From contig RQOL01000658.1 of NCBI GenBank assembly GCA_013076295.1, positions 1,860,001 through 1,924,000 of the forward strand: DNA of 64,000 bases. The letters run 5' to 3'. Each line of letters starts with the position of its first letter. Position 1 is the first letter of the stretch. The notes below the pieces were generated by a model. That model had not been told where the DNA came from. It ran no database searches and saw only the letters and a list, made by a program, of their open reading frames with translations. Source of the stretch: Sanderia malayensis (Eukaryota; Cnidaria; Scyphozoa; Semaeostomeae; Pelagiidae). This document shows, in pieces, positions 14,001 to 63,873 of this stretch. The position numbers and the translations under genes were made by a program.

Positions 14001-17000
14001 GAAAAAAGTTCGCAAGGCGAAGTTGAGAGAAGAAGGAAAAGAGCAAGACATCGATGAAGATGATGCAAAGGAAGAAGAGGATTATGTGAAGAAGGCAGCA
14101 ATGGCAGAGAATTGGCCTCTCAGAACAAAAATATCACAAATACTCAAGTTTTACGGTGTACCACACGGTGACCAAGAAGTAATAAGCAACGAGTACTTTG
14201 ATAGCAATTGCGATTATAAATCGTTTGCTACAATAATGCTTGATGCTAATTCACAGACAACTGGCGCATGTAAATCTGCTCCAACGAGCCAAAATGCAAA
14301 GCAGGTTCATCGAAGGCGACAGAGGCACGATATGAAACCGGCCAATTCCAGCAGAGATGGTGCAGAAAACCTGGGCAGCCAGGGCCATCAAAGCAAAGTT
14401 AGCATGAAGGAGATGGCTAATGCCCTTAATGATGTATGGGCCATGCTTAATACAGAAAGGAACATGCGTGAAGAAATGCAAAAGAAGATGGACAGTCTGC
14501 AGGAAACAATTTTAAAGGAAAGACAAGAACAGTTGGCACTTGAGAAACTCATTGACGAGAGAAACTTGACAATAAAAATCTCCAAAACTGGCTCGGAGAT
14601 TGAGGAGCCCAAAGATGAGATCAAGCATGAAGTTGCCACAGAGACAGATCAGAAACAACAATCTGATGGTAAAAAAGTCAAAGAAGAATATGTAGATAGT
14701 CCTGAAGACGTCAATGAAGGCATTGAATCCGAATTGGACGAGGATTATCAGGAACTAATTCAGGTGCAGAAAGAGCAAATGGAGATGTTTAAACAAATGA
14801 TGGAGAATAAGCAACAAATGCAGGTTGCGACTAACCAATCTGTCATAAAAAGGCTGGAACATGTTGAGAAGCAAATAACATCCATTGGCTTCCAGCAACA
14901 TCAACAACAGGAACAGCCAACAGAACATGAAGACAAGAGCGTGATCGAAGAGCAGAAGATAAAGATAATGGAGCTCAAAAACAAGCTGGAGCTTGCAAAT
15001 AAATGCCAGGAAGAGCTCCAGTGTACAATCCAGGAGAAAGAAAAAATGCTGCAAATGTGCGTTGATCAAAAGAAAAAAGATATGGAGCAATTGGTGGGCA
15101 AATCTGTTGGTGTGACTGAACTCGAAGCAGAGTTGGAAGAAGCACAAATGTCGATGCAACAAATGCAATCAATGATTGATAGTCAAAAGGATGATATTGC
15201 AAACCACATCGGTGTTGCTGAGGTGCTTGCACTGCAGGTGACACAATGTAAAGAAGAGAAGCAAATCATGGAAAACAAGTCGAGGGAAGAGCTTTCAATG
15301 AGAGAAAGAGCAATGAAGCTTTTCAGTGAACAGTTCTGTGATGTTGAGAAGGAGAACAACCGATTGAAGGAGCAACTGGACGATGTTGTTGATAACTTGG
15401 CCGACACCGTGTCCATGAACTCGATAGTGAAGGCAGATGGGGACCTCACTATCGAGGGATTGGACAAAATGCTGAAGGCTAAGGATCAACAAACCCAGCA
15501 GCTACAAAATCAGCTCCAGAACGTTCAGCATGAGTTGGCATCTGGCTCAACCGATGTGCAAGACTCTTTGCAAGACGGCGCCATTAGTGATGGAAGCACA
15601 AATCAAAGTACCACTCAAGGGGAAGAGTATGGTACAAATTGTGGTGAAGTCAGCGATATCAAGGAGAGAGAAATTGTACAGCAAGAGCTTACAGAGAGCC
15701 GATTTGTGAACGAAGAGTTGAGGAAAATAATGGATGAGGGCGAGGAGGAAAGCAGCGTCATGTTAAAAGGCATCTCCGAGCTGAGGAAATTGACCAAAGA
15801 ACTTGTATTTGAACTGGAAGAAGAAAGTTCAAAAAGAGCTGCTAATTCTGCAAGACCATGGAGTAGGTCAAGCAATGAGACGGAGGCAGGCGAACAGGAA
15901 AGCCATCAAAACAGGTCTGACATGTTGGAAACAAAAGAGCCCTGGCGTGAGTTTAATGACGCCAATGAAGAGTTCAAGGCAGTCATGTTTGCAAGCGAAG
16001 AGCTGCGCAGAATTATTCTTGACAAAGACAATGAAAATAGGTGGCAAGCAAGAGATGTTTCTGTACTCAAGAGAAGGATCGAGGAATTAGAAAACGGCCA
16101 GAGCCATGAAAGAAGAGAAACTGTGTGCAATGAAAGCTGCGACAAAGGAAATGTCGATGAAAGCACATTGCAAGATGTAGAACAAGAGTTCTATGACATG
16201 AAACACCTGAATGTCGAGGCCTTTGTCAAAGCGATAATAGATAAAGGCATCAAGATTGTCAAACAAGAAATGGAAAAGCAATCGGGCACCAAAACAGAAA
16301 GTTCTGACGAGGAAGGGGAGAATTTGGCATATTTCAACACAGCTAAAGATCAAGACTGTAGTAATGCCAATTGGCTTTCGAGCATTGTGAAGAAAATTCA
16401 CAATAGAGATGGGATTTATAAAAAACTGGAACAATGTAATTGCAAACAGATATTGCAATTGCGAAATTTTTTCAATTTTTTCACTTTTTTCACTTTTTTC
16501 ACTTACAAACAAATGTACAACCTGGAAGTATAATCTGGCATATATTCATATTTCGTTTTCCAATTGTATGATCATTCGCAAATTGGAATAAAAATTGTGT
16601 GGCATATTGAAAATTAGTTGTTGTGTTTGATTGGATGATAATCTAAAACAGCTGCGTACGGAGTTTCGTAATCAAACCGCATGTGTAAAGGAGCCTTTAA
16701 AGTCTAGGGTACCAGGGTACTAGGATCACGTGTATGTGGATGAACAGATAAAATAGCGACAGAAGTTGGTTCTTTCGTAATTACTTGACTCACCCACAGT
16801 AACGATTATACTAAGCATCGAGAGAAAAGTGGGAAACATTTGCAAGCCACGAGGCCCTTTACATGGGAAAACTGAGATTTGGGTAAAAATTAGATATGAC
16901 AACTGCTACTCATCTTTCTGCGCTAAAGATCTTGGTTGGGAAAAGTAGGAATATGTTTTTAATAACCTTGGATACTTTTTAACAACGCTGTTGATAGGGG

Positions 17001-44485: not shown

Positions 44486-47400
44486 ATGTTTTCCGCGGAG
44501 AGTAAAATGTTATGCTTGCTGGTTGTATTGATGAAGATTGGTCAGCTTGCCGGGTCGAGTGGAAGCACATGTCGGTCTGGTTCTCTCGATGGCTACGCGT
44601 TTTGCTGTTGCAAGGAGGTTGTCATTCCTACCCTATCGAGTACTTCATTTGTAAATACTGCCATGTTGAGCACCACATCTGCTGTATTTGCTACACAAGC
44701 CATCACAGCAACACCTTCTGCAACAAATGCAAGTACAGCAACAATTTCTGCTGCAATAAGCCCTACAGTTTCGGTGACACCTTCTGCAAGTGTATCGACG
44801 GTCACGGCTTCACCAATACCAACGCCTCAGCCAGCGTTCAACGACTCTTGTTTCGTCAAAGTCGATATAAACTATGCAGCCTATAACGAGTGCTACTGTG
44901 GCTATACCAGGCGCAATTATGTCGCTTTTAACGGCTCGCACTACAGTGACACCAACAGGACAGACTATCAGTATAGCTGTTGGAAATTGCCTAAACCGAA
45001 GCTGTACATTGGAGGGCTCTTCAATAGCAAGTCAGATGTAGGAAGGAGAATTTTGCCGGCTGCAGATGTCGCAATTGATGAGATCAACAAAGATGAGTCC
45101 ATACTGCCTGCATATGATCTTGAGATATTGACACATAATACAACAAAGGTAAGGCAAGAAGTTCTCATGTGAAACTGGGGTGATATTTGTAGGCTACCCC
45201 AGACTTGGAACCTTTGAAACTTGAAATTGGGGCAATTCTGTGCTGGGTAATCTAAAACGAGGCCCGAAGAAATGCCTCGGGACACGAGGGCGAAAAAACA
45301 AATTTTTTTGCCTGAATGGTCGGATGGGATGGGCCTTTTTTGTGAAATATCCATGCTTGGTATTATTTCTATAAAGACATGCATGCACGGTATTATTGCG
45401 ATTATGTTTCACTGTTTTAAAGACATTCAATACATTTGACTTCAGGGCTTTATCAGCACAGGCTCTGGAGTCCTCTTGGACTATTTGAATAAAGACCCAA
45501 AGAAAGTTGCACTGCTAGGCCCTGATGATGACGAATTGGCTAAGTCAGTGGCGGCTATTGCGGGCTTGCCGAGATACAAACTACTGCAGGTAAGACCTAC
45601 AGAATGTGGGAAAGATAAACAGTTTACGGGATTATCAATTTTCATGATATCTTTCCTAGTTTGAAGGTTGTTTTTCAGTCAACCAAATTTCCCAGCCCCG
45701 CCCCCTTTTTGCATTTACCGTAAGTCATAATCCAGGAGTTTTAGTCCCTTGTGCCCTGCGAGGGCTTATTTTATTTGCAAAAACGATATTTTAGCTGCAT
45801 TTTTATTCAATATTAGACGTTATAAAAGCTATACTATGCAGTTAATCAACAAAGTTATTGATTTTTTCATCTTTCTGCAGATCTCTTATGGAACCTCAGC
45901 CATTGAGCTTGCTCTGGAACACGATGATCACTACCCATATTTCTTCAGAACAAAACCTCAATTGGACTTATTATACAATCTTGCAAGAGTTGAAATGCTC
46001 GAGAAGTTCAATTGGAAAGAAATTGCTCTACTTCATTCAAAAGACAGCTATTACAGCAAGGTAGCTATCTGCCTCACAATGCATTTGCATAAGTATTTGC
46101 ATAAGTATTTGCATAAGTATTCACACTCATCCAGATGTTATATAGCTCTATCTATCTATAAATTTACTGCACAGAAACCTACAATCAGGTTATTACGTAC
46201 AGATGTATATTATTGGTCTATCCTATATATTCTATATTTTATTTTTCCAATTCATTTTTCATTTTCAGCTGAATGATGCACTTCGATCTGTAATCCAAAA
46301 GAAAAATATTCCCATCGCTGTTGAGGAAGAGTTTACAAATGATCCTACAAGCTCTTTGGAATATATCAAGGTAATAAGAAATTGATTCCACCAATTCCAC
46401 ACAGATCTCACTGATTGCAAAATTAAACAAGTTTTTTTCATTTAGTAGACATGATTATGCATGTTCTTGATTTTCACTGCTATATTTATTTGGTTTTATG
46501 GATTCAAAACTAATAGATTTTCCATTGGAATTATTTTTGATTATATTTTTTGTTTCAGCGAAACAAAATACATGTAATTCTTGGCACATTCTCTGCAGCT
46601 GATACAAGCAAAGTCCTTTGTGAAGTGAGAAGTATTTCTTTGAAAAATGTATTTTTCAATTACCGTTATTGCGTACGCATTAAATCAATTTGGATTTTTA
46701 AATCATCTTTCCATACAGGCTTACAAGCTGAAGATGTATGGACCAAGATACGTGTACTTGTTTATTGGTTCCGTGTCTTTAAACGCTATTCGTGGATGCA
46801 CGCAGGCACACGTCACATGCGCCGCACGTTACCAGTTCTTTTTTCAGAAGAAGGACGACACTTCGTGCCCCGGAACCATCAAGGTATTTAGAAAATGTTT
46901 TGCGTCTAAGTAACAGGGTGATGGGATTCAGTAATGGGGCTCTGTTTAGAGCGCTTGATTTTATTAATCTGGTGTGTCGAAAGCCCAAAGGAACAAGAAG
47001 TTTGTGAGTTAAACAGAGGTGTCAATAATTATGCCACTGTTTATTTACAGACTTCGTTTGATGCAAAATACGGGGAGTATTTGAATGCCACGTATTTCAA
47101 CACGACAGTCAGTCCTGTGCCCGCGGGCCACGAATACGGTTCTTATACATACGATGCAATATATGCGATCGCAAGGGCATTGCACGATACGGATACAAAT
47201 AAAACTGAACACGGTAAATTCTATCACGACTTCGCCTATGGTAGCGATAAATATGGTCTTCAGATTAAAGACAAGATACTCAAGTATGACGAATGTGGAG
47301 TGTCGGTAAGGGACGTTTTTTAATGCTGCAAATCCTCAAATTAGTTGCTATTTATTGTCTGTTGATCGCATCAGCGCGTAACTCTAAGTAGCAATCAATG

Positions 47401-50400
47401 CGGTGTTCTTTGTGCGTTATTCGCGTCATTTATAAACTCACACTGCCTGCATTGGCATAGAGCACTATTATTGCTGATAAAGACATTTAGCTGCATCCTT
47501 ATAACAAGGAAATTAAATATGCAGGCAACTCACGAAGACACTGCATTGGTTACTACTCGGAGTTTCAGGTTAATACGATCATCATAGACTCACTCTGTCT
47601 GCAGTGCCATGGAGTAATTCTCTTTATCAGTAAGGATAGTAAATATAAGTAAAGCTGCATTCTTATTAGTTTACAGTTTATAACATGTTATGTTTTGTAA
47701 TTTACTTATTTATAGATATATTAGAAATTTTTAGTTTATTTATTTATAGGTTTATTAAAATTGTGTAGTTCTAAAAGGGAGATTAATTAAAGGGGGGGTT
47801 TTGGGGGCGCCAGTTTAAGGATTTGCGATATTTATTTCGTTATGCATCCACCCCCATCGCTTTAATATTGATTATTTGTTACATTTCCTCAGGGCAAGGT
47901 CATTTTCGACCCAGATGGAAATCGCTATTTCAAACTCAACGTCGTTCAAAAGACTTTCGGTAATTATTTGTTCGTATTTACAAACGGCATTTATATGATG
48001 CGGCATGAGTTTACAAAGTAAGGTAACAATAACAAATGCCTGTATTAGATTGAGCAAACAGAGGGAAGTCAAAGAGTACGATAAATAAGTCATGGAGTGC
48101 CCAAATTCTCATGAAGTTTTTGTGTTTCACGACGGTTTTTCATTTGTGATGAGTCCTTTTTTATTTCAGCAAATCAAAAGGAAATTGGAACATTCGATAA
48201 CAGAGCTAATCCTGGAGGAAAGCTGAACATTCAACCGATATGGCCTGGTACGTTAATAAGAACCTCTAATTAACCGGAATATGATATACATCTCCTCATA
48301 TTTTCGGTTTTAATTGTTTTTTGAAACCTTGCAGGCAAAGAACCATACAAAAAGACCGAGGTGGTTTCATCATGGAGATTCATAACGAAGGAGTTGTATA
48401 TTGTGTATTGCATATTTGCAAGTTTGGGGATAATATTTGCTATTTTCTGTCTTGTTGTTCTAATATGGAAGAGAAAGCACAGGTTTGTGGATAACATTTA
48501 GTTTTCCAAAGAGAACTTATTTTCTTAATGAAATAGTTGAATTTCGGTTCAACACCATTCTACCACTTGCTTGTTCAAGACTCACAATTTTACAGATGTA
48601 ATCTTGATCTTTTCGCGACTCTAAATATCCAATATTTTCGCGTTTCAGGGAAATTCGATACTCATTTTATCTGATGAATATCGTCATCATAATTGGCTGC
48701 ATTCTTGTCTACATATCTGTCTTTTTATTTGGTGTCGATAGCATCATATCTCCTATCTTGGACGTTGACCGTATTTGTCGAGTATGTAATTTTATATTCG
48801 TTGCTTTGGAGAAATGTATAGTTTGCACGGAGGATTGTGATAAGACAAAGATATCATGACATTCTCTTTATATTCGATTACTTCTAATTTTAGGCTAGAC
48901 TGTGGGTGTTCTCCATTGGTTTTATCCTTGCAGTTGGGGGCATTCTTTCAAAGCTTTGGATCGCTCATGATGTGCTATCAAAGAGACTTCTCATGAGAAA
49001 GGTTCACACTCGTATTTTAATATATATTATTAGTTAACTCGAATTTTGTCTGAGCATCTTTTTATTTGGTGAACCTACTGATTAGGATCTTCTGACCATA
49101 TTGAGACAAGTTGCAGCCCTCTAGTACATATGGTTCAAAAGTTAGGGTCGAATGAAACAAGCTATTACTCCATGCATCATCCATGATAGTATAGCCTCGC
49201 AAACTCAATTTTTGAAATTGAGTATAATTTGGCTCACGAATTGGCCAAAACCCACCAATTTTGGTCTTTAAGTCATTTTGAGACAAGTTCCAGCCCTCTA
49301 AGACAGATTCATTGCAATGCTTTTCTTGCTTTAGTTTTCGTTTTTTTATCACTTAATTGATCTTCTAATTCATTTGTTTTTGACAACATATTCAATATAT
49401 TTTTTGTTGAATTTTGCAGAAGAAGCGTCAAGGCATAATGTTTGGCATCGTCTCTGTTCTGCTTTTGGTCACCATTATTATTCTGATATGCTGGCATGAA
49501 GTAAATCCATTGCATCGTGTCATTGAGTACATCAAGACAAAGGCTGAATATGCTTGTGATACTGACGTATGTCCATGATGAGTTAATAAACCTGTTAATG
49601 ATCGTTATATAGAACTAAAGGCAGCTTTTTATTTTTATTCGTGCATCACTTAGCATTGCATTGCAGTTGCGGATAACTTTGAATTTTTTTGACAGATTTG
49701 GCCAGACAGTCCATTTACATTGGATTCAATAGCAGTGGAGCAATGCAAATGCACCAACGAAATTATCTGGTACTTTGTTATGGTGATTTGGAAGGCCTTT
49801 ATTCTCCTAATTTCCGTCACGTGGGCTTATCAAACGCGTCAGGTTTTCCTCGTTACCATTAACGACACGCAACGATGCGGACTATGTGCCTTCATCATTG
49901 CTGCTTGCTCATTAGTTGGTTTGATCATCGCCTTGACAACACGGCTACTTCCAGACGTCTTCTTTGGTTTGCTTGGCTTGATAATCATTGGTTGCGTCAC
50001 CGCGGTTTTAATCATTCTTTTTCTGCACAAGGTAAGCTGAAGCCCCGTTGAGATCATTGTCATTGTAATTTCCTTCCAATGACCATTACTGTTATACCAG
50101 GGGGTCGATACTGTTTGGTTTTGATTTTAATCGAGCACGTTCTTTCTAGATCTTACTAGTTTTCCAGACAGCGAGGAGGAAGCTCGTATCAAGTAGTGCC
50201 ACTGAGGAGGAAGATGATAAGAATTGTTTCAAGCGTTGCTTCTCTCGCATCAACTGCTGCTCAAAGTGTTGCAGTGGCAATTGCCCGAAATGCTTCCGTT
50301 GTTGCGTGCTTTGCTGTGCGCCATGTTTGGCCTGCCTCTCTTGGCTGTTCGCCTGTTGCTGTGCGTGTTGCAGGAATTGTTGTTGTGGGTCGAAGGAATC

Positions 50401-53400
50401 GAGGAATGGAACGAAGAGAGCAGGGGAACAGAAGTTTGTTGTTAATGGTATTGCTAATGAAAACAGTGCTGAGTTGGCAAGACTACAGCGTGAGCTTGAC
50501 ATGGTAAGAGAATGTTCACAGAATAATCAACTGAACGGTCGTGACAATGTTCTATAGTTGTATCAATGTTCTATAGTCTTTGTATTACTCTATGGTCATG
50601 ACAATGCCTTGAACTCTCACCAATATTCGATAGGTTTTACCTATTTTCCATAGGGTTAGCATAGCAGTTTTGTCATGCATGAATCTAGATGAATTAGCTT
50701 GAGATATATCAAAATAGCATTACAGCTAACTTCTACTGGTCAATTATGCAAAATGCTGAAGATGTTCATGCTCCAACCGTTTGAAAAATAGCCAACAATA
50801 CAATGAACGAATCAAAAATGATCAAAAAGTATTCGTCATAGTTTAGGGAACATTTCTGTGTAATTATTTTTTCAAACAAGGCGCGAAAACTTTGCGAAAA
50901 CCCCGCTGTAAAATGAGTATATTGACCCGTAGAAGTTAGTCTATTTTGGTTCTACTATGGATATATTAATCCTTGCTCTGTTTATGAGTTTAATCAAGCA
51001 AAAATGATGTAATCTCGATTAAACCATCTCTCTTCAAGAAAATCATCTACATTAACAAGCTCAAGCAGACTGGCCGTCCAGTTGCCACACCAATTTGGAC
51101 GCAGACCACTGAGCAAGTCGCTTATTTATCAGACGGATATGACACTGACAGAGGTGAAAATGGGAAAGATGGAAACAAGAAGAAAGGCAAGGGGAAACGT
51201 GGTCTCAAGATATTCAATCAGAAACTCGACTTTTCACACGTGCAAAGCAGAACTGATAGTAACTATAAGACGGGTGGTGGAGCAGGAAACGGTGATGTTA
51301 TTATCATGAATAACCAAGGGGAAAAGGAGAAGGAGGAGATTGGTAGACTGCAACGACTTCTTGCACAAGTAAGTGTTTATTTATTTTCTAATTGCAGCTG
51401 GGTCTTTGTGGATATTTAGTTACTTGATTGGGTGATTGTTTGATGAGATTGAATGATCTACTGGGAAATCATAAATCAACTTTATTTGAACGAGTAGTTG
51501 ATTGTAGCTCTTGATGAAGTTGCTGATTAATTGAACTGAATTACAATAGTGAAATGGAACAGATAATACAGTCGAATCTCGAACTCGCTATCTCGAACAG
51601 ATTCCCATTTCCCCTCGTTCTCTAGTTGGATGAATTTAGTTCGGATATCTCGAACATGTGGGACAAACTTTAATTTCTCCTGCGAGTTCGAGAGTCGACT
51701 GTAAAAAACAATTCTGGTATGATTGATCATGATTGATTATGATTGATTATGATTGGCTATGATTGATTATGATTGATTAAGATTGATTATAATTGATTAT
51801 GATTGATTATGATTGGTGATCGACGATTGATGATGGATGAATGATGGTCGATGATTCATGATTGAATGCTTGCTATTACATCCTTGTTAAAACGGAGCGA
51901 TTAGATGATTGTGTGACGTCTTCCCTTTCCAGCGAGATGCTGAGCTGCACAGGTTGAGGAATGGAACTGGCAAACCGAATGAATTTGAGTTACAAGAGAT
52001 CAACGAATCTATCGAGAAAGACATGAAGAAGGGATTGAAGACGAAAGACAATGGTACCAATGTGGATATGATTGGCGGTGAAGACTACAATGCATTGCTG
52101 AAAGAGTTCAATGTTGATGGTAAGAATGTGTCGGCACAAGAGAAGCCAAACAGTGATAAATCGAATGTTAAAATTGACAATCGAAAGCTTGATTGGTCTC
52201 AAGTGCCGTCTAAATTGGCGACAACTGGTGCAGTGGGGAAATGTCGCACCACCTCGACAGTTGAAGAGAGTAAACCCAAAGAGCATTATGGTGGAAAGAA
52301 AAACAGGGTGAGTCCTGTGCCTGGAGATTCCCCTTCTGGTGATTCCCCTTCTAAGGATGCTGGGAAGGATAAAGGCGTGGATTCCCCTTTGAAAAATGCA
52401 GGCAAGGATTTCAATGATCCTAAAAGCGATGCAACGAGATCTGACAAGGGAAAGGACACACCATCCAATGTAACAAACAGTGATCCTGGCTTACTAAACG
52501 TTGATGTCACGTATAACAATGCGGACAGACGACGTTCCAGTGTCAAGATCTTCAGTAAAGCTGCAGATTACAGCCATGTTAAGTCAAGCATTTCTCTGTC
52601 GAGCTCTGGTGGGAAGGTGGACTCAGAGAGACGAGGGTCTAGCGTCAAGATCGTTAATAATCCTAAGGATTATAGTCATGTGAAATCCAAGTTGGTTGTG
52701 GACAGCACTCCCAAGCCAAAGCCAGAAGATTCTGGAGATGCAAGTCCAAGAAATAAGGCAACTTCTGACGTTAAGATCTTAAATGATCCCAAAGATTACA
52801 GCCACGTGAGGTCCAAGTTGATTCCGGATAGTACACCGAAACCAAAGCCGGAAATTTCTGGAGATGCAAGTCCGAAAAGTAAGCCAAACTCGGACGTTAA
52901 GATTTTAAATGATCCGAAAGATTATAGCCACGTCAAATCAAAGCTGGTTCCGGATAGTACACCGAAACCAAAGCCGGAAATTTCTGGAGATACAAGTCCG
53001 AAGGCTAAGCCAAACTCGGACGTTAAGATTTTAAATGATCCAAAAGATTATAGCCACGTGAGGTCCAAGTTGGTTCCGGATAGTACGCCGAAACCAAAGC
53101 CGGAAGATTCCAGAGATACAAGTCCGAAGGGTAAGCCAAGCTCGGACGTAAAGATTTTAAATGATCCGAAGGATTATAGCCACGTCAAATCAAAGCTGGT
53201 TCCGGATAGTACGCCGAAACCAAAGCCGGAAATTTCTGGAGATACAAGTCCGAAGGGTAAGCCAAACTCGGACGTTAAGATTTTAAATGATCCGAAAGAT
53301 TATAGCCACGTGAAGTCCACTCTTGGAACCGCAGGCAGCGGAGCTGGTGGCCCAAAGAAGAGCACAGTAAAAATTGTAAATAAAGCAGTTGATTATTCTC

Positions 53401-53423
53401 ATGTGAAGTCGAAGCTTGCATGA
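44486..53423 (+). CDS. GABA-B-type class C receptor with long tail of tau-like repeats (about 1588 aa, 17 exons)
   Basis: Exons: 44486-45148, 45446-45589, 45881-46060, 46269-46370, 46559-46624, 46719-46883, 47051-47305, 47893-47959, 48170-48247, 48335-48482, 48649-48781, 48894-49001, 49420-49566, 49696-50031, 50150-50503, 51039-51368 and 51933-53423, all phase-consistent. A signal peptide (MLCLLVVLMKIG) precedes a Ser/Thr/Ala-rich stalk (about 48-118) and a Venus-flytrap domain (about 165-590; ISYGTSAIEL). Seven membrane helices follow (about 600-865). There is no nine-Cys domain between them, so it is GABA-B-like rather than mGluR-like. The tail has 22 Cys within about 55 residues (880-940), short heptad segments (LARLQRELDM, IGRLQRLLAQ) and ten copies of a VKIxNxxxDYSHVxSKL motif from about residue 1037. 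Exon 16 could instead start at 51069, 10 codons shorter. Confidence 0.88.
51569..51701. mobile_element. Pogo/Tigger-like MITE, 133 bp
   Basis: The ends CAGTCGAATCTCG and CGAGAGTCGACTG are flanked by TA. The sequence is related to 34860-35033 but shorter. It lies in the last intron of the GABA-B-like gene. Confidence 0.7.
51721..51860. repeat. GATTGATTAT-type simple repeat
   Basis: About ten imperfect copies of a ~10-bp ATGATTGATT unit lie directly beside the pogo-like MITE, in the last intron of the GABA-B-like receptor gene. Confidence 0.85.
52638..53420 (+). repeat. In-frame 126-bp coding repeats (42 residues) in receptor tail
   Basis: Units start at 52638, 52764, 52890, 53016 and 53142, an exact 126-bp period, then a partial one at 53268 and a diverged last one at 53361. 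Each begins VKILNDPKDYSHVKSKL and continues with a Pro/Lys/Ser-rich spacer (PDSTPKPKPE, then GDTSPKGKP). More diverged copies of the same core lie upstream at 52536 (VKIFSKAADYSHVKSS), 52161 (VKIDNRKLDWSQVPSKL) and, in the preceding exon, 51201 (LKIFNQKLDFSHVQSR). The near-identity of the middle units implies recent expansion or homogenisation. Confidence 0.95.
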
Positions 53424-55641
53424 TTTAAAATTATTGTTATTATTCATATTAGAATTATTACAACTCTTTGATGTAATCTGTTATATAATGATTCAAAATA
53501 TTAGAACGAAACTTGGAGAAAACTGAGAAATTAACATGGACCAGTATAGCAAGGAATCTAAGTGGAGTAATGCGAGTATGCAATGAAGAATACATGAATG
53601 ATAAAAAGCATGGACCAGTAATGAAACTGTGATCTGAAGCATTAATCAAATCACTTTTTATTACGATCAATGAACAGAGTGATTACATGAATATTAATTC
53701 ATCAATTAATCAACGTTTATATCTGCTATGTATGCTTTTAATCTACTGTATAACTTTGACAATATGCTTTATTGTTTAAGCTGTAATAAGCTGGTAGTAT
53801 TTACGTCTTTATTTGTAACAAGAGTAATAGTGTATTTTATATTTATCTTCACAAAAACCATAAACTGAGAACTCCTGTTTATTATTAACACTAGATTCCT
53901 GTATCCAGTACTGTATAGTTTTGTGAATAATTTATATGAACTTCGGTAACTATGAACTGCACAAGCTCCTTAGCTTTTAATTGCATTAGAAGACTTTTAT
54001 ACAGCTTCGTTGTAGTAATATCCCTTAATTTCAACCACACAAAGGACTATGCTTATTACTTAAGTAGCTCGTGTAGTTCATTGTATAATTATATGCTTGA
54101 AATCGTGCGTGTTTCGTGGAGGGGTGATTACTTTGAGAGCTGAGGTTTATCGAGACTTTTGATACTGCGCTATTTTCAAATCCCCACGCGTCGGAAAAGT
54201 TTTAGTGCTCCTCGAAATTTGGCTTACTGGATCAGAGAGAATTAATAGAGTATTGAAGAAGCCAGCTGAAAACAGTTGATGTTCAGAGTTCCACAGCAAA
54301 ATTTGGCCTGCCGACGACTGTGCCAGTTAACCCTGTGTTTTCCTTTGGATTTGACATTCTGTTTAATCATCTATAGGACGTAATGCTGAAGACGGAATGC
54401 TGGCTGTGGCGAGTTTCAATCCGCAGTGGCTCATGCATGTCTGGTTAAGTGACTTACAATGTACTGTGGTAACAATCTGTTCAATGCAATCCAGTGATGC
54501 AAAATGCATAATTAAAATCCATATTAAGGAGTCTTTAAAATAGCCCAGAACTAACCACTTTTTTAATCAAGTTTTATTCTCTTGCAGGTTTTAAATGCGA
54601 AGGCATAGATGGGAAGTATGTTACATATTACAGTATCAACTATCGTGTAATTAAGGGTATTCGTGCTTATTACACGCTAATGTTAACGCGGGCTTTTAAT
54701 TGCAGAATCTAGCGTGCAAGCAGCACGCATACTTTCATCTAGTTCGGGTAATCATTTTTGGCCATTGTCTCACTTGGTCGTGATTTTGTTTCACAATTAA
54801 TCACATGGTAGTGATGAATTGTGACAAACCCAGTCTTGCATTGCTTCTAGAATTATCAATTTTGAAATTTTACCCCGCAACGATTTCATTTTAAAACCTC
54901 TCCGTAAATTAAGCATGAGTTAAGAGACTTCCAACCCGCCGAGCCCCCTGTAGACTTAATTAATCTCCCCACTATGTGGGTTTGTAAGCACGACAGTAAT
55001 AAGATGTGCCATCTGGCTGGTGTTGGTGATCTCTCGCGGCTCTGCCGTTAACCGATGTGAGATCATTCTTTTCTGATGCGGCTGATAAATTCAAAATTAT
55101 TCATTTTATCAGCAGCTTTCCATCAGCATTGATCCTATTCAATCCACATAATATTGTCAACCGATGGTTGCAGCTTGTTGAGGAAATATAATAGTTATGA
55201 CGACAGTGAAAGCGAAGAAAGAGTTCAATAATTTTATATTCTGAATCGTTGAAAAGCTGTTGCATTTCAAAGAAGCAATGCTATTGGGCTCTGGCTAATT
55301 GGCATCATTCTGAATTGAGACGCAATTCGCACAAGGTATTATTTTATCTTCATACTGTTTTTATTGCTGATATTTTGTTCTTTACCTCTGTAAATTTGAT
55401 TCTTCAGTTTCTATTTCGTTGTCACTAATTAAGTTATCTTCTTTGCTTCTTAATTCCTTAGTTAATATTTTGTGCTCTACTTCCCTCTATCGTTTTTCTT
55501 TCTTCTTTAGTTGATATTTTTTCTTTCTTTTGCTCTTCGCTTATATAATCGACATTGATTCACTAATTTAATTGCCACCTTCTTTCTCATTAATCTTCAC
55601 TGGTAGCCTAATTACCAACGTATTCTTTATTTCAGGTAGCG
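53424..55641. other. Intergenic region between the two receptor genes
   Basis: The 2.2 kb holds the presumed 3' UTR of the GABA-B-like gene and the promoter/5' UTR of the iGluR. A CAG acceptor-like site at 55635 precedes the iGluR ATG by seven bases, so an upstream non-coding exon is likely. No coding exon with homology was seen. Confidence 0.5.
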
Positions 55642-58600
55642 ATGAATCAACTCATTATTTCCTTGGCAGTCATAGTCTTAACAAGCGAAATAACATGCAA
55701 CTACGTTGATGACAAGGATTATAGATGGATTGAAGTTGCAATTCTAACAGCCCCCGAGGAGGACAACAAAGAGCTGAACACAGCAATTGTTGAGTGCAAA
55801 AGTCTGGTCAACGAGGAATGGAGGCATCGCCAACATGGCACCAACCGAGTGAAATACAGACTCAACGTTGGAAAAGTAGCTTTGCCACCAGAGAATCTAT
55901 TCGACAAAGGTATATCGACGCTATGCATGATCCTAGACCTATTTATATTTGCTCCAGATCTGTTTATATTATACGTACGTGTAAAGCTTGCAACAGTATT
56001 CCATGTATACTATGCAAACGTATAAAGCTGGTGGCAGTACAGAGAGGAATATCTGATTCTCTGCAACTCTGAGTTTCATGCAACAGCATTCGCCAGACAG
56101 ACTCTTCTGCTATGACCACCCTGTGTTTTGATCGAGCACTTTTTATCAGTGTAGACACCACTTTTATATGATGTGTATCAAGATATCTATTAATTATGCA
56201 TAGTTTTAAATTTTTCTCTATTATACATTGCTATAAACCTTCCATATCATGCCATAAATCTGAATTAACATTGGGATCTAGCATCAATATTACCAATCAA
56301 CTTTTAGCGATTCTTAAGAAAAGAGAGCTGACATCAGCTGCATTTGTCATCGAGGCCTATGCGGTGCATCCATTTTCTTGCATCCTGAGTGACCTGTTGG
56401 GCATTCCGCAGATTACACTGACAGATGAGCACAATCCTGCTTGTAAGAACGTTCTGAGCATGCGCCCTAACACCGCCCAGCTCTACGACTCCACGCTCGC
56501 CATGATAAGAAGATCAAAATCGCGTATCGTTGCTGTGATAATTGAAGGTACGTGTGCACCCTGGCTTTCGCTTGTTCCTCGTATGCTTTTAAGTAGTTTT
56601 TAGTGTCGTAACGGGGGGGGGTTGCTCTACAATCGATTGCAAAGAAGTCTATGATGTGATATATCTACAATCCTTCACAAAATACATCGAGACTCGCAGA
56701 AATAGAAGATAGCAGTACGTTTTTTGGCTCAAGTTTGCACGAAAAATGATTGGCCAGCTCTCCCTTCCCCTGACTATGCAATGTTGCCATTATTATGGAA
56801 ACAAAACCTCATCATTTCCTCAAATATCCTGAGAAACAACACATAACCAACATTGGTTGTTTGGGGGGAGGGTAAAAACAAAGGCAATTTTACAATTTAT
56901 GTAGACGATTGTAGGTATCTGTCTCGTTTTTTAGATTCCATGGGAGAAACGGCAATTAAATTCATGTCACAGGGAAAACTTGCCCAGCGGTTTCCATTCC
57001 AAGTCGTCGGGAAGATCAACTTCAAAAAGAACAACACGATTGAAAAGACGATCAAGAAACTCAAAGATTCTGGCATCAAACGAGTTTTGATGATGATGCA
57101 CAGCCGTCATGTTGGAAGGCTCTTAACCGAGGCAAATTATTAGATTCACTACATTGCGTCCTTGTGTCTCACTCGTTTTGCTCGCTCGGTTGAGTTGCGA
57201 GCGAGGCACTGGGACGTTATGTAATGAGTCTAGCAAACTATTGCACACTTATTTTAATAAGACTAATTTTTTGCCAAGGCTCAATGCTCTTTAAAGTTTT
57301 CGATTTTGAGCTTCAAAATATTCTGAAGCTTTCTTCAACTACCCTTGTTTTGTTTTGTGAAAGAGCTCAAATAAACAAAATCCTGGTGACGCTTAAGCCT
57401 GGCTTTATTCTTACATTATTCTTAAATTTTTGAGAATTTGAGCCTTAATATCCTTTACGTAGTAACGTAGTAACGTAGTTGCCAAGTAGCCATCACAGCT
57501 TCTTATAAGATATTCTTATTGCAAAGTGTGTAATGCCTACTTCACTGTGACTTCCATTAGTGTATCAGCAAAAGCTACTGTTCTATTGACATTATGAAAA
57601 ACTTGCTTTTTTCTTAGGTGAACAGGTATGGATTACTGTTGGACGACTACAAGTGGTTTTTACCTCTGATGGTATGGTTTTCTTGAATTAATTAATATAT
57701 AGCCATAATTATTATCTATAGATGTGTAATATCTACACTGACATTACAGTGCTCGATGTACAGAAGTACAGAGCAATAATAGAGTAGAGGTGTTGTAACA
57801 GAGTAGTAACAGAGAACTAAGTCTACTTTCTTGCTTTTACTCTAGCCATAATTATCATAATTATAATTGGCATAATTATTATCAATTATCATTAATCATT
57901 ATAATTATGCATGATTGTCTTTGGATTTTTAACTTACCATGTTGCTTGTTTATAAGAAACTGTATTTTATTCACAGGAGTTTTCCATTGGATTGGTTAAT
58001 ATGAGTAGGCTGCGTGGTGTGTCAGGGGTGCGAATTCCTTCAAAGTTTCCAATTTCCAATGCCAAAGGACAATGCGTACGTCACCTTTCCTATTGCTACT
58101 TGATCTGATCATTTTCTATATTTCTTTGCTCATATGCCTCTGTGACGACTTCGTAAGCCAAAAAGGAACACATTGGTCATTTACTGGTCTATAATGTCTT
58201 AAGAGGAACACGTAAACCCTGAGTCCACCTGATCCCAAAAGGAACGTGTAAGCTCAATGCTAGTGCACATAAGCCCAAAAGGGACATGTAAGCCCTATGC
58301 TAGTCCACATTAGCCAAAAAGAGACATGTAAGCCCTATGCTAATCTACGTAAGCCCAAAAGGGACATGTATGTCTTATGCTAGTCCACATAAACTCTAAA
58401 AGATTTCAAGTCTTTCTAGAGCTGGTCATTAAAGCCTATGTAGGCTCTTTATTTAGTCCATGTAAGCCCTGCACGTACTCGTTCGCTATACACGACCCAA
58501 GGTAGGCTATGTGAGAACATTTAAGCTTTACAAGGATGCTGTAAATTTACATTAGCCTCGCACAAGCCCACGTGAATTCCCCAAGAACTGTCATCTATGC

Positions 58601-61600
58601 AGAACTCATCGTCATTATTTTCAATAACACGTATTTATCTTCATTCCAGAAATACCCAGCAATCTATGATGCCTTTAATTTGGTATTAAATGCTTCGATC
58701 AGATTCGAAGATATCAGTCGATACCTGGATACAAAGGCATCGTCTCCAGTTGATGAGGAATTTTGTCCAACAAAAAGCTCTCATGATTACGGAATGGATT
58801 TACTGAACGTCGCCAAAAAGGTGGAATTTTAGTACGACTCAGCATTGGTTTGATTATTGCCTTTAGCAATACTTTGCTAGCATTTTTATGCATGCATATT
58901 TGTTTTTATTTTCAGATACGCTTTCATGGCAGGACTGGATTTGTGAAGTTTAAAAAAAATGGCTATCGAGATGTCGCCGAACTTGAAGCAACTGAGATTG
59001 AAAAAAATGGAAAATTTGAAAAGGTTTATAAGAACATTCCGCATTTACCATTTGCTAATAAGCATTATTATTATAAAGCATCTCCGATGCAATGCGAATG
59101 TATCGTACGATATCACTATCTATTTATCGGATGAGTTTCATTCAACATGTTAGCCTCTTTCTCCAATTGCAATGACGGTATTTTTCTTATAAATAGTATC
59201 TTCAAAAAGGTTGCTTTGGATTGTTATTCTATTGCAACACCGTCTCTTCTTTGTTAGCTTGGAATCTGGTCTGCAAAATGTAAGAAGATGATATGGGATC
59301 CGAAGGCTGAAGACGACAAAAAATTTATTGAATTTGGCTGCAAGACTCCAGCTACTAGCACTGGACCTCTCTCTGACTTCAAACCATCGACAACAGAACT
59401 GCGTGTGGTGACACATGAAGTAAGCATCTTTCTTATTACCCAGAAAAAGCTATTCTGGTGTGCAATGATCTAGAGGCTTTTCACGAGAATTATCTGGAAC
59501 GTCCTGAAATTCATGTATCTTCATAGTCTTTCATACGTATATATATATACATGTTTGCGAAGCCTGTGTTTCGGTTTCCCGTAAGAGTGCTCAATACATT
59601 CATTAAAGTAGAGCTAGACATATTCGAGGGAGAAAGGAATCAAGACTAAACTCTGTATCTCTACAAGCCTGTTTCGTGGTTTCCACGTGTATATACATGT
59701 TTGTGTGTATATGTATATGTGTATATTTATATGGTAGTTTAAGACTAATTTCACCCGAAGTAGTAAATATACTGACAAGAAAAATCACCGAGATCCAGTT
59801 TCATTGATTCGCATGGCATCTTTCACAATTCCAATTCCACGATTCCAATTCCACGATTCCAACCTCGAGAACGTCCGTGATTCCTCCTTGTCTACATGTA
59901 TATGTCGCTTACAGCCATTACATATGTACCATACATTCTCAATACAGACCACATATATACACATGATGTAAGCTACAGTCATTTGATTCTTGTATTCCAG
60001 GGTCCGCCGTTCATTTTCTACGACAAGACAAAGGCGAATGGCAAATTGAACGAGGCCTACTCTGGCTTCTGCAAGGATTTACTTGATAGATTGTCAAGTG
60101 ATTTGAATTTCACGTACAGACTATACATCGTCGTACCTGGAAACTACGGTGGATCGTCATCCAATGGCACCTCCAACGGAATGATCAGGGATTTGATTAA
60201 CAAGGTAAACTAGCTATTAACATTGTTAAAATGAGTGCTGCTGTGATGTAAAGCCAACAATTAGGGCTGAAGCATCTAGAAATTGATTAAAAAGATATGT
60301 TTTGAAATGAGTGCCTACAAAAAATATGGAGATGGGTGTAGACAAAAACTTGCAACCAAGCAAGCTGCATTTTTCTTGTTAAGCTGCGACTAAACATTCA
60401 CCGAACAGTGAAGTAGTTCAAGGGGTGAGATGTTAGCTTGCTTCTGTCGTATGTCAAGCCCACACTTTAATTCGATAACCGAATGATTTGCTGTGCCGGC
60501 CAATTTCAAGTGTGGCATGGCGCATGTATGTGGAGCGTGACGGTAAATGACTAATATTAACGGGTGAAGGATGACCATATGTCTGGTGCGTTGATTCCTT
60601 TGACCTTATGCTATTCTCCACTGCTAGCAAGCGCTACTGTAGACTAGCGGTAACTTACCTGCACACTAAGCTCAAGATAACTGGTTCGAAACCTGACGAG
60701 AGCATCTACTTTGTGTTTTAATGAATTTTTAATTTGAATGTCGTAAAGGTGGCCCTGTATGCGCAGTACCCTAGATTGGCTACTACGTAATAGTACTGAC
60801 AGTGTCTGGTGTATCAGTTAGGGTTAGGCTTAGGGTTAGGGCTGGAGTGCCCTAAAGGTGGGCGTGTATGCGCAGTACCATATATATGCTACTGCGCAGG
60901 AGGATCTTTGACGCATGACATCCAAAGTGTCTCCCGTGAGCATTAGGATTAGGGTTAGCATTAGGGTTAGCCTTAGGGTTAGGGTTAGGGTTAGAGTGCC
61001 CTAAAGGTGGGTGTGTATGCGCAGTACCATATATAGGCTACTTCGCAGGAGCATGCATGACGTAATACTAATGAGAGTGTCTGGTATATCAGTTAGGGTT
61101 AGGCTTAGGGTTAGGGTTAGAGTGCCCTAAAGGTGGGCGTGTATGCGCAGTGCCATATATAGGCTACTGCGCAGGAGGATCTATGACGCATGACATCCAC
61201 AGTGTCTCCCGTGAGCATTAGGATTTGGGTTAGGATTAGGGTTAGCCTTAGGGTTAGGGTTAGGGTTAGAGTGCCCTAAAGGTGGGCGTGCTTGCGCAGT
61301 AATATATATCGGCTACTACGCAGGAGAACCTATGACGCATGACAACCAAAGTGTTTCCCGTGAGCATTAGGGTTAGGGTTATAGTTAGGGTTAGGGTTAG
61401 AGTTGGTGTGACCCAAAGGTGGGCGTGCATGCGCAGTACAAATATAGGATACTATAGATTTTCTGGACCGGTATTACTTTTAATATCCCCTACTAAATGC
61501 AATAAAATGCATAGTGAAATTACAACAGTTTTCTGGGGCCTAGCATACTTGCAGGTATTTGTTTTTATCAACTTATGCCCCACGACAAGAAAGCAACTCC

Positions 61601-63873
61601 TGCGTTCTTGTCAAAATAAATATGTCGTTTTTGGACCTTCGCGTTTCTGGCGCTGAATAAAATTTAATAACCATTAAATAAGCCAACCAAATATTGTCTC
61701 AAGCCACGACCTGTACCAGGCGTTGTATTCCAGGCCTTAACCACACCTTGTTTAGAACTTGATCATGAGACAACTTGGAGTGAGGTGCAATGAGTTTGCT
61801 TGAATCAACTTTTGATTCCAACATTTTCTTTAATTGTTTATAAGCTCTTATCCTTTTCCAGGATGCTGACATTGCAATTGGTTCCTTCACAATAACCGCA
61901 GAACGCGAGAAAGCAATTGATTTTACAAAACCATTCATGGATTTCACGATGAGTTTGATCATGGAGAAACCACCGCAAGCTGAAGTTAACATATTCGCAT
62001 TTCTACAGCCATTCAAACTGGAACTATGGGTGTCTGTTGCGGCTATAGTAAGTACCATCCCAGTATTACCTCCTTTCATTGCAAGTAATTCATGCAGCTC
62101 ATCAATGAACATCACTGTATTTCCAGGGGGTAAAGATGTTTACTTTTTTGCAGATTTTCATCACTGGTAGTGTGCTGTTTGTCCTTGATCGCTACAGTCC
62201 TGCTGGCTTTCGTGAAGTCGCAATGAAGAAAGGCGAAGGAACGGGTGAAGAGTTTAATCTTCGCAATTCCATTTGGTTCATGGCTGCTTCTATGCTGCAA
62301 CAAGGACCAGATTATACACCACGTGGAGCAGGTGGTAGAATCTTAGCTGCCTCCTTCTGGTTTTTTAGCATAATCATTGTCTCGACGTACACTGCCAACC
62401 TTGCTGCGTTCTTCACAAGTAAGTCACTTATCCACGGGTTTAGATAGCTTCTTTGCTTCAGTACAGCACACAACTCTCAGTGTTGCACATATCCATGGCT
62501 TTAAACAGCCTTGCAACTCTTATACAGCGCGTATGCTTTATTATTGGCTTTCAATATCAAATATACGTCTTATATTCTGTACGAGCTATAAGGATCTGCA
62601 GTGCTGAGAGCTGTAAGAGGCTGCTTGATCATTTGCTCATGTCAGAGCTCGTATTAAACGATTTTCTGACTCGATTATATTTTGCATTGCAGAGAAGAGT
62701 ATGGAGACGAGCATCAAGTCATTGGAAGACTTGGCCAAGCAGGATAAAATCAATTACGGTGTGCTGGATGGGGGACAAACCCAGTCCTTCTTCAAGAACT
62801 CAAAACTCCCCCTCTATCGTAAGATGTACGGACAAATGGAATCGAGGAAGACGTTTGCGAAGTCGACCAGCAGTGCTATTCAGCAAGTGAGAGAGGGTGG
62901 ATATGCTTATCTCACAGAGCATCCCATGCTGAGTTATTACAATCAACAGCAACCTTGTAACACTGTTTTATTAAAGAATTTACTCGAGGCAAAAAGTTAT
63001 GGACTTGGATTGAGAATCGATTCTGAATGGACTAACCCGTTATCTGTGCAGATTCTTAAAGTATGTCATGTTTTAGTTCAGTGCTTGTTTTTGTTCTCTG
63101 CCATTCTTCTTTGATCCTCTCTTTTTTGTTTCACTCTTCAGCACTATATTCTTCTTTAGGTTCATCTACTCTTCTTTGATTTTTTCACTGCTAGATTCTT
63201 TTTTGTGTTGATAATTTTTTTTCTACTCCTCTTTGTTTTGTTTAGTTTTGTTCATAATATATATCGATTATTCTTTACAGAATGGTCCACAGTGATGTCT
63301 CTTTTCTTTTAGCTTCGAGAGAGGGGAGTCGTGGAACAAATTAGACGTAAGTGGTGGGACCAGAAGTCATCTTGTCCTGTCGCTCAGGATGTCAAAGTGA
63401 AGACACCATCACTTGAATTCATGAGTGTTGCAGGAGTTTACGTCATCTTGGCTTGTGGCGCAATTCTTGCCTTGGCTATGCTTTTCGTTGAAGTGAAATA
63501 TCCCGATCTTTTTACGAAGAATTGGAGAACAGCTTGCAAGGTATGAACATGCACGAACATGAACTATTCTGCTATATATACAATGCAATATAACTATTAT
63601 ACAATAGCATACAGATGCCGTATAATGCGATGGCTATTGTGAATATGTTTGTATTTGTCTATTCTCAGGGACAAGTGTCTCTCGACTTTTGAGAGACACT
63701 TGCCTCTGAGAACAGACGGTAATGAGAAACGTGTTTCTCGAAACATCGCATTTGCAAACACGCCTGCTCATGACATATTGGTTTTTCAGCCAAAGCCAAT
63801 ATATGACACAAATGGGGGATATGGTGGGCATGAGAAGAGTTATCTCGACACTATTGATGCTGGCTTTACAAAG
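55642..63873 (+). CDS. Ionotropic glutamate receptor, 3' end beyond window (878 codons seen)
   Basis: Exons: 55642-55909, 56308-56547, 56935-57131, 57618-57671, 57977-58075, 58650-58820, 58916-59023, 59258-59419, 60001-60204, 61862-62047, 62154-62418, 62693-63060, 63313-63540 and 63790-63873, all in phase. There is a signal peptide (MNQLIISLAVIVL), an amino-terminal domain (to about 420), S1 (GPPFIFYDKTKANG, GFCKDLLDRL, TITAEREKAIDF), M1, the pore loop (SMLQQGPD, about 610-616), the M3 gate STYTANLAAF (near SYTANLAAF), S2 and M4 (about 812-835). The AMPA-type ligand residues Arg516 (in TAER), Thr681 (in GGQTQSFF) and Glu727 (in LTEHPM) are present. The donor after 57131 appears to be GC (GAG|GCAAAT), because reading on meets a stop. 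The cytoplasmic tail continues past 64000. A SINE/TTAGGG element fills the intron 60205-61861. Confidence 0.9.
58200..58400. repeat. ~46-bp minisatellite in iGluR intron
   Basis: About four degenerate tandem units (AAGCCCAAAAGGGACATGTA then AGCCCTATGCTAGTCCACAT) lie in the intron 58076-58649. Not coding. Confidence 0.75.
60208..61452 (+). mobile_element. SINE-headed TTAGGG minisatellite element, copy C
   Basis: The longest of the three copies. It starts a few bases after the splice donor of iGluR exon 60001-60204 with TAGCTATTAACATTGTTAAA and matches copy A there. The tRNA-like head (about 60515-60735) has TAGACTAGCGGTAAC near 60643 and B box GGTTCGAAACC near 60683. About six tail units follow with TTAGGG tracts, CCCTAAAGGTGGGCG, the TGCGCAGT dyad and TGACGCATGACATCC. 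Because the three copies share the same head and tail outside the duplicated genes, this is a dispersed family and not just part of the local duplication. Confidence 0.75.

Follow-up and report, generated by a model that had tools for sequence, protein, structure and literature searches.

Can a membrane receptor hold on to microtubules by means of its own tail? The question is raised by a 64,000-nucleotide stretch of the scyphozoan Sanderia malayensis (GenBank assembly GCA_013076295.1, contig RQOL01000658.1, positions 1,860,001 to 1,924,000 of the forward strand), referred to here as the window, in which an earlier note had described a GABA-B-type receptor gene whose cytoplasmic tail repeats a tau-like core ten times. 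All positions given below are in window numbering, and residue numbers are those of our own 1588-residue gene model. We conclude, with a probability of roughly 0.6, that this gene encodes a class C G-protein-coupled receptor of the GABA-B type with a disordered, basic tail of ten half repeats of the tau R2 type, and that this tail would act as a multivalent, weak binder of microtubules or tubulin that tethers the receptor. Receptor and repeat are each of a known kind; it is their combination that is new.

Ten copies of a VKIxNxxxDYSHVxSKL-like core are found between 51204 and 53417, starting at model residues 1038, 1171, 1296, 1330, 1372, 1414, 1456, 1498, 1540 and 1571. They lie where the earlier note had placed them, with copy 1 alone in the exon 51039-51368 and the other nine in the last exon (51933-53423). 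Scores in the following lines are for PF00418, the Pfam tubulin-binding profile.

51204..51254, + strand: copy 1, LKIFNQKLDFSHVQSRT; 23.4 bits within the 141-residue open reading frame (ORF), 26.8 bits as a 40-mer, 27.7 bits as a 22-mer
52167..52217, + strand: copy 2, VKIDNRKLDWSQVPSKL; 18.7 bits alone
52542..52592, + strand: copy 3, VKIFSKAADYSHVKSSI; weakest of the copies tested, 12.9 bits alone (E 0.11)
52644..53324, + strand: copies 4-9, spaced 42 residues apart, a 126-bp in-frame DNA tandem array
53367..53417, + strand: copy 10, at the very end of the chain, VKIVNKAVDYSHVKSKL; 20.7 bits alone

Copies 1, 2, 3 and 10 are diverged. Copies 4-9 are not independent of one another, since they form the 126-bp array (called by Tandem Repeats Finder at 52656-53319, with 5.3 copies).

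The profile search that had been set beforehand as a check places the last-exon ORF at 81.6 bits (E 3.6e-23), over the PF00418 gathering cut-off of 27 bits, and the exon-16 ORF at 23.4 bits, below it; the refuting outcome that the earlier note had named for this search did not occur. Copies 1, 2, 3, 4, 5, 9 and 10 were also scanned singly; all seven match PF00418, at 26.8, 18.7, 12.9, 18.5, 17.4, 15.1 and 20.7 bits, respectively (E 4.7e-6 to 0.11), and no other Pfam family at E<=10. As controls, ten sequences were built (five column-permuted arrays of copies 4-9, four plain shuffles and one reversed tail), and six of these, namely the permuted arrays and the reversed tail, were scanned. None of the six matches PF00418; the original array, equal in length, scores 66.8 bits. 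Two of the six reach an unrelated family above that family's own cut-off (28.3 and 22.7 bits), which shows that tandem copies inflate scores. Hence, scores in the twenties obtained with a tandem array mean little, and it is the single-copy and family-wide results that carry the argument.

For the family-wide comparison, a profile was made from 33 repeats, hand-picked among 68 distinct ones that had been collected with a pattern demanding Ser at position 15. Thirty of the 33 were long enough to scan, and 29 of these have a PF00418 match at E<=1. In a search of all PDB sequences, the profile gives 35 matches at E<=10, every one of them tau, although these are not independent because they are variants of one protein; the best (E 2.3e-17) is the 6cvn construct with its four identical stretches, and the next has E 3.5e-6. 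One column-permuted version of the profile yields no PDB match, and the reversed profile yields no tau, only two antibody chains (E 0.71 and 1.5). Chance or composition as the source of the likeness was ruled out by the single-copy scans together with the permuted and reversed controls. Positions 1-16 of the profile align to tau 275-290, so that position 15 corresponds to tau Ser289. At the level of sequence, these comparisons demonstrate a specific relation between the repeats and tau residues 275-290.

The predicted gene model that joins the repeats to the receptor is given here in full.

44486..53423, + strand: whole gene, predicted gene model of 17 exons and 1588 residues
44486-45148, 45446-45589, 45881-46060, 46269-46370, 46559-46624 and 46719-46883, + strand: exons 1-6
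47051-47305, 47893-47959, 48170-48247, 48335-48482, 48649-48781 and 48894-49001, + strand: exons 7-12
49420-49566, 49696-50031, 50150-50503, 51039-51368 and 51933-53423, + strand: exons 13-17

Each of the 16 introns has GT-AG borders, and translation stays in frame from the start ATG at 44486 to give the 1588-residue protein. The four exons named in the earlier note (the last four listed) have their splice signals and preserve the frame, and the 13 exons upstream of them complete the receptor. P0021, a predicted protein of the same species in EukProt, equals our model minus residues 904-939 (36 residues of exon 15). Since it was annotated separately and is otherwise identical, our own reading is not the only basis for linking the repeat exons to those of the receptor.

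The same fusion was also found elsewhere, as the earlier note had suggested looking for. In both main protein searches, scoring covered only the 8000 or so candidates with the most words in common, and what follows may therefore lack some relatives. The search confined to long proteins returned four: P0021; P0022, from a second species (1772 residues, 47% identical to P0021); P0023 (1011 residues), which begins within the seven-transmembrane (7TM) domain, joins it to repeats and is probably a fragment; and P0024, from the octocoral Dendronephthya gigantea (1544 residues, 29% identical to P0021), which goes under the name 'uncharacterized protein LOC114535870'. The separate gene models of P0022 and P0024 join receptor and repeats. 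PF00418 scores are 71.1 bits in P0022, 77.7 in P0023 and 36.8 in P0024, and P0024 can be aligned co-linearly with P0021 from residue 87 to residue 1065 of the latter, a span that takes in copy 1 and a coiled-coil-like stretch that follows it. A third protein search gave P0021, P0022 and P0023 as its only long relatives and nothing beyond the earlier ones. The last exon, used as query, returned 20 proteins, and PF00418 is precomputed for every one of them. When each is assigned to the long relative that BLAST matches best, eight are of the window type (P0001-P0007 and P0011) and 12 of the soft-coral type, with P0011 and P0020 assigned weakly to their groups. Some of the 20 may be last exons of genes that encode long relatives (identity is 77% between P0002 and P0022 and 82% between P0004 and P0023). 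Within the S. malayensis genome (184 Mb, 918 contigs), a search with P0024 gave four matches among 18 candidates scored, two in the 7TM domain and two in the last exon, all of this gene; used as queries, the last exon (4 candidates scored) and exon 16 (1 candidate scored) match nothing but themselves.

Two observations on single copies may be added. Copy 2 belongs to a subtype of its own, K[LVM]DWSQ[IV]PSKL, whose position is conserved in the window-group tails (P0011 has KVDWSHVKSKL), and the window-group relatives end in a last copy similar to copy 10, with small changes.

The 17-residue core is under purifying selection. When the six tandem copies are compared, the proportions of nonsynonymous and synonymous differences in the 17-codon core are 0.050 (pN) and 0.627 (pS), a pN/pS of 0.08; for the 25-codon linkers of five copies they are 0.107 and 0.294, a pN/pS of 0.36, the pairs in this comparison being non-independent. 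That pS is lower in the linkers points to some degree of homogenisation. A leave-one-column-out tally, in which the tested column is excluded from scoring, covers 150 copies from 24 proteins, including tandem copies and near-identical relatives, and its seeds were chosen with a motif pattern demanding Ser at position 15. Position 15 is the most conserved (Ser in 147/150), position 16 is Lys or Arg in 143/150, and position 3 is Ile in 142/148. The Ser-Lys pair by which tau is anchored to alpha-tubulin is hence kept in the family at positions 15 and 16. By eye, the ten copies of the window have the Ser in 10/10, a basic residue next to it in 8/10, and an aliphatic residue after that in 9/10. Copy 1 together with the DS that follows retains the equivalents of both tau Ser289 and Ser293, and its KLDFS...S..DS is invariant in all four long proteins.

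How might such a tail work? A published simulation study gives tau Ser289 a contact of about 100% with alpha-tubulin residues, and a weaker one when it is phosphorylated (PMC10032563). A cryo-EM review reports that tau Ser258 and Ser262 bond to alpha-tubulin E434, that Lys259 meets an acidic patch and Ile260 a hydrophobic pocket, and that the EM density leaves no room for a PGGG hairpin (PMC6692637). Position 15 corresponds to Ser289 and also, by our own arithmetic, to Ser258, 31 residues or one repeat earlier; the receptor repeats keep the Ser-Lys anchor plus the extended strand that precedes it. We propose that each core would rest on the ridge of alpha-tubulin with its conserved Ser-Lys/Arg-Leu end, which corresponds to tau Ser289, Lys290 and the residue after them. 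Each contact by itself would be weak, and the ten of one chain would tether the receptor to microtubules or gather tubulin beneath it. A Cys-rich part, perhaps palmitoylated, would lie with a coiled-coil-like part between the membrane and the array, and phosphorylation of the core serine or of SP/TP sites in the linkers would release the tail.

Several observations weigh against a microtubule tether. Every singly tested copy falls below the cut-off of 27 bits, except for copy 1 as a bare 22-mer (27.7 bits). The best PF00418 stretches cover model positions 1-16 to 2-19 of 31, and the PGGG half is absent. The likeness to tau's PGGG turn claimed in the earlier note does not hold, as no stretch among these extends beyond position 19; the Gly-rich string reported after copy 1, TGGGAGNG, is indeed present in the window, but no GGG stands there in the other three long relatives. 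By eye, the Ser293 equivalent is Ser in copy 1 only and Thr in copies 2 and 9, and at the Lys281 equivalent a Lys stands in no copies but 1 and 2, the others having Pro (copies 4-9) or Ala (copies 3 and 10). The tandem copies are spaced 42 residues apart, compared with 31 in tau. Finally, from KLDFS onward the soft-coral tail has a net charge of only +4 (P0022 +24, P0023 +25).

It could be asked whether the repeats, while descended from or resembling the tau type, now have a different partner (another protein or membrane lipid, or one another) and lack useful affinity for microtubules. The missing second half of the repeat would fit this, as would the tandem copies with Pro in place of Lys281 and lacking the Ser293 equivalent, and the VQIINK-like segments of tau are self-assembly motifs as well. 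We nevertheless consider it rather unlikely: the best conserved residues include tau's alpha-tubulin contacts (the Ser289 equivalent and the basic residue that follows), and the Pro-rich linkers would argue against continuous self-assembly. That the likeness is convergence on a short motif, with no common descent, is improbable, and convergence does not in itself count against function. The match is limited to 16-19 residues; an exon for a repeat of a microtubule-associated protein (MAP) in the same genome is entered in phase 1 (own reading), and receptor exon 16 in phase 0; and a tandem control could reach 28.3 bits with an unrelated family. Against this stand the 35 of 35 PDB matches to tau, with none from two control profiles, and copy 1, which by itself attains between 23.4 and 27.7 bits according to which piece is scanned. 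The MAP repeat just mentioned (1484-1599 of locus L001, on contig C405) is also evidence against convergence: it is canonical, ends in PGGG and scores 51.5 bits, and its presence means that a donor of a tau-type repeat existed. An apparent second, partial repeat lies in the next exon of that locus.

A further possibility is that two neighbouring genes have been wrongly joined and that the repeat exons form a separate gene. The joining does rest on predicted gene models, and read-through of the exon-15 donor meets a stop at 50555-50557. However, P0021, P0022 and P0024 are each annotated as a single protein, P0021 and P0024 remain co-linear through copy 1 and the stretch after it, P0023 likewise joins 7TM domain and repeats, and the genome search with P0024 finds the 7TM domain and last exon of this gene alone. 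An annotation fusion as the cause of the architecture is thus very unlikely. As to origin, the receptor repeats are likely to have descended from a MAP gene; exon shuffling from such a gene is not supported by intron phase. More tentatively, at a little short of even odds, the tau-type array would have been fused to a GABA-B-type tail before the window group and the octocorals split, and retained since, so that the receptor itself would be a microtubule-associated protein in which ligand binding and attachment, gated by core-serine phosphorylation, interact in one molecule.

The receptor part consists of two regions.

44486..48247, + strand: N-terminal part and ligand-binding ectodomain (ANF receptor, PF01094, on P0021); GABA-B alignment from P0021 residue 172
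48335..50031, + strand: 7TM domain (PF00003 on P0021); GABA-B alignment ends at residue 868-888

The first of these begins with a signal-peptide-like start (by eye) and a Ser/Thr-rich stretch. The PF01094 ectodomain is carried by P0021, P0022 and P0024; exon 49696-50031 alone matches 7tm_3 at 31 bits, slightly below its cut-off. P0021 matches 52 PDB sequences at E<=0.001, of which the top 17 are GABA-B subunits (15 near-full-length chains, E 3.1e-82 to 6.1e-64, and two ectodomains); these are followed by GPR156 (E 9.5e-15) and by taste and glutamate receptors from 2.2e-10. With GABA-B leading the list and alignable over both ectodomain and 7TM domain, the receptor is, by homology, a GABA-B-type class C receptor, as the earlier note had it. 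The ligand may be other than GABA, since several of what we take to be the GABA contact residues of subunit 1 (S130, S153, H170, Y250, W278 and E349) look mostly changed by eye in the P0021 alignment (for example, H is replaced by K, Y by S, W by S or A, and E by Y). Elsewhere in the genome, PF00003 matches 32 additional stretches, which are stretches and not genes. Many class C receptor matches, on contigs C464, C675, C155, C435, C613 and others, lie within single open frames of about 850-940 residues; two pairs of them, on C435 and C613, score identically and are possibly uncollapsed haplotypes. A single look each for an innexin and for GFP gave no match, a negative that proves nothing about their absence.

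After the last helix, the tail runs through a Cys-rich exon, a coiled-coil-like stretch, a TQT motif and copy 1; then follows another coiled-coil-like stretch, which the last intron interrupts, and the last exon contributes 496 residues with copies 2-10.

50150..50503, + strand: Cys-rich juxtamembrane exon, 22 Cys in 118 residues, with a coiled-coil-like end ENSAELARLQRELDM (by eye)
51099..51107, + strand: TQT motif, candidate LC8/DYNLL site, between the first coiled-coil-like stretch and copy 1; invariant in 4/4 long proteins
51318..51965, + strand: second coiled-coil-like stretch (by eye), split by the last intron, 51369-51932

An LQ.E encoded by the Cys-rich exon is invariant in 4/4 long proteins, as are several leucines of both coiled-coil-like stretches and, in the second, leucines and charged residues on either side of its exon junction. 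The TQT possibly represents a dynein light-chain site, which would fit a role in transport or dimerisation; the published LC8 (DYNLL) motif is given as [D/S]K.[T/V/I]Q[T/V][D/E] (PMC3078936), and the flanks fit it poorly, with only the Lys three before Gln present, and this solely in P0024 (KETQT). The last exon is predicted to be disordered, with a mean predicted local distance difference test score of 42.6 (from a shallow nine-sequence alignment), and has a pI of 9.45, a net charge of +21 and 15 SP/TP sites. Within exon 15, the 36 residues absent from P0021 correspond to 50266-50373, 108 nt which by our own reading could be excised as GT...AG; GTGTTGCAG occurs at both 50266 and 50365, and P0023 retains a similar Cys-rich segment. 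The difference may be an alternative intron or an annotation effect. The intron preceding the last exon contains a minisatellite of TATGATTGAT units at 51718-51815. Elsewhere in the window, two similar, long uninterrupted ORFs on the + strand (7412-9958, 848 residues; 13861-16533, 890 residues) have a coiled-coil look and are apparently a tandem duplication, and downstream of the receptor gene, at 55612-63114 (+), are pieces that by eye resemble an ionotropic glutamate receptor gene.

The earlier note knew of no described receptor with this architecture. Among the titles and abstract openings listed from an open-licence library, no report of a GABA-B or class C receptor with tau-type repeats was found, which agrees with that statement; the databases, however, already carry the combination by automatic annotation, as all three Pfam domains are assigned to P0021, P0022 and the uncharacterized soft-coral protein. 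The genome of a sponge is reported to encode more than 120 metabotropic GABA receptors (PMC7385117), and neither 'tau' nor 'microtubule' occurs in the main text of that paper. If the tethering proposal is true, a receptor whose own chain includes a tau-type array would offer a natural test case for direct coupling between receptors and microtubules, with the soft-coral relative as a named organism in which to carry out the test. The tau R2 core would also have been put to use long ago in a protein that is not cytoskeletal, and without the PGGG half, which bears on the question of which part of tau grips tubulin.

The protein can be compared with several known systems. It shares with the tau/MAP2/MAP4 family (PF00418) a core that matches tau 275-290, a disordered, basic, Pro/Ser/Lys-rich setting and consecutive copies, but differs in that its repeats are PGGG-less half repeats, ten in number, in a membrane receptor. 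GABA-B subunits 1 and 2 are alignable with P0021 over ectodomain and 7TM domain, whereas the Cys-rich exon and the long repeat tail are extra in the present receptor. PTL-1 of C. elegans is not a membrane receptor and differs from the present protein in this respect. The two are alike as invertebrate proteins with tau-like repeats, PTL-1 being described as an invertebrate homologue of tau (PMC4326904). To our knowledge, metabotropic receptors held at cytoskeletal sites are held there, in the known cases, via separate adaptors. Marlin-1/JAKMIP1 is reported to be a microtubule-binding protein that associates with the GABA-B1 receptor subunit (PMC2685396); it is a separate adaptor, whereas here the link would sit in the receptor chain, so that one chain would do what Marlin-1 does in mammals.

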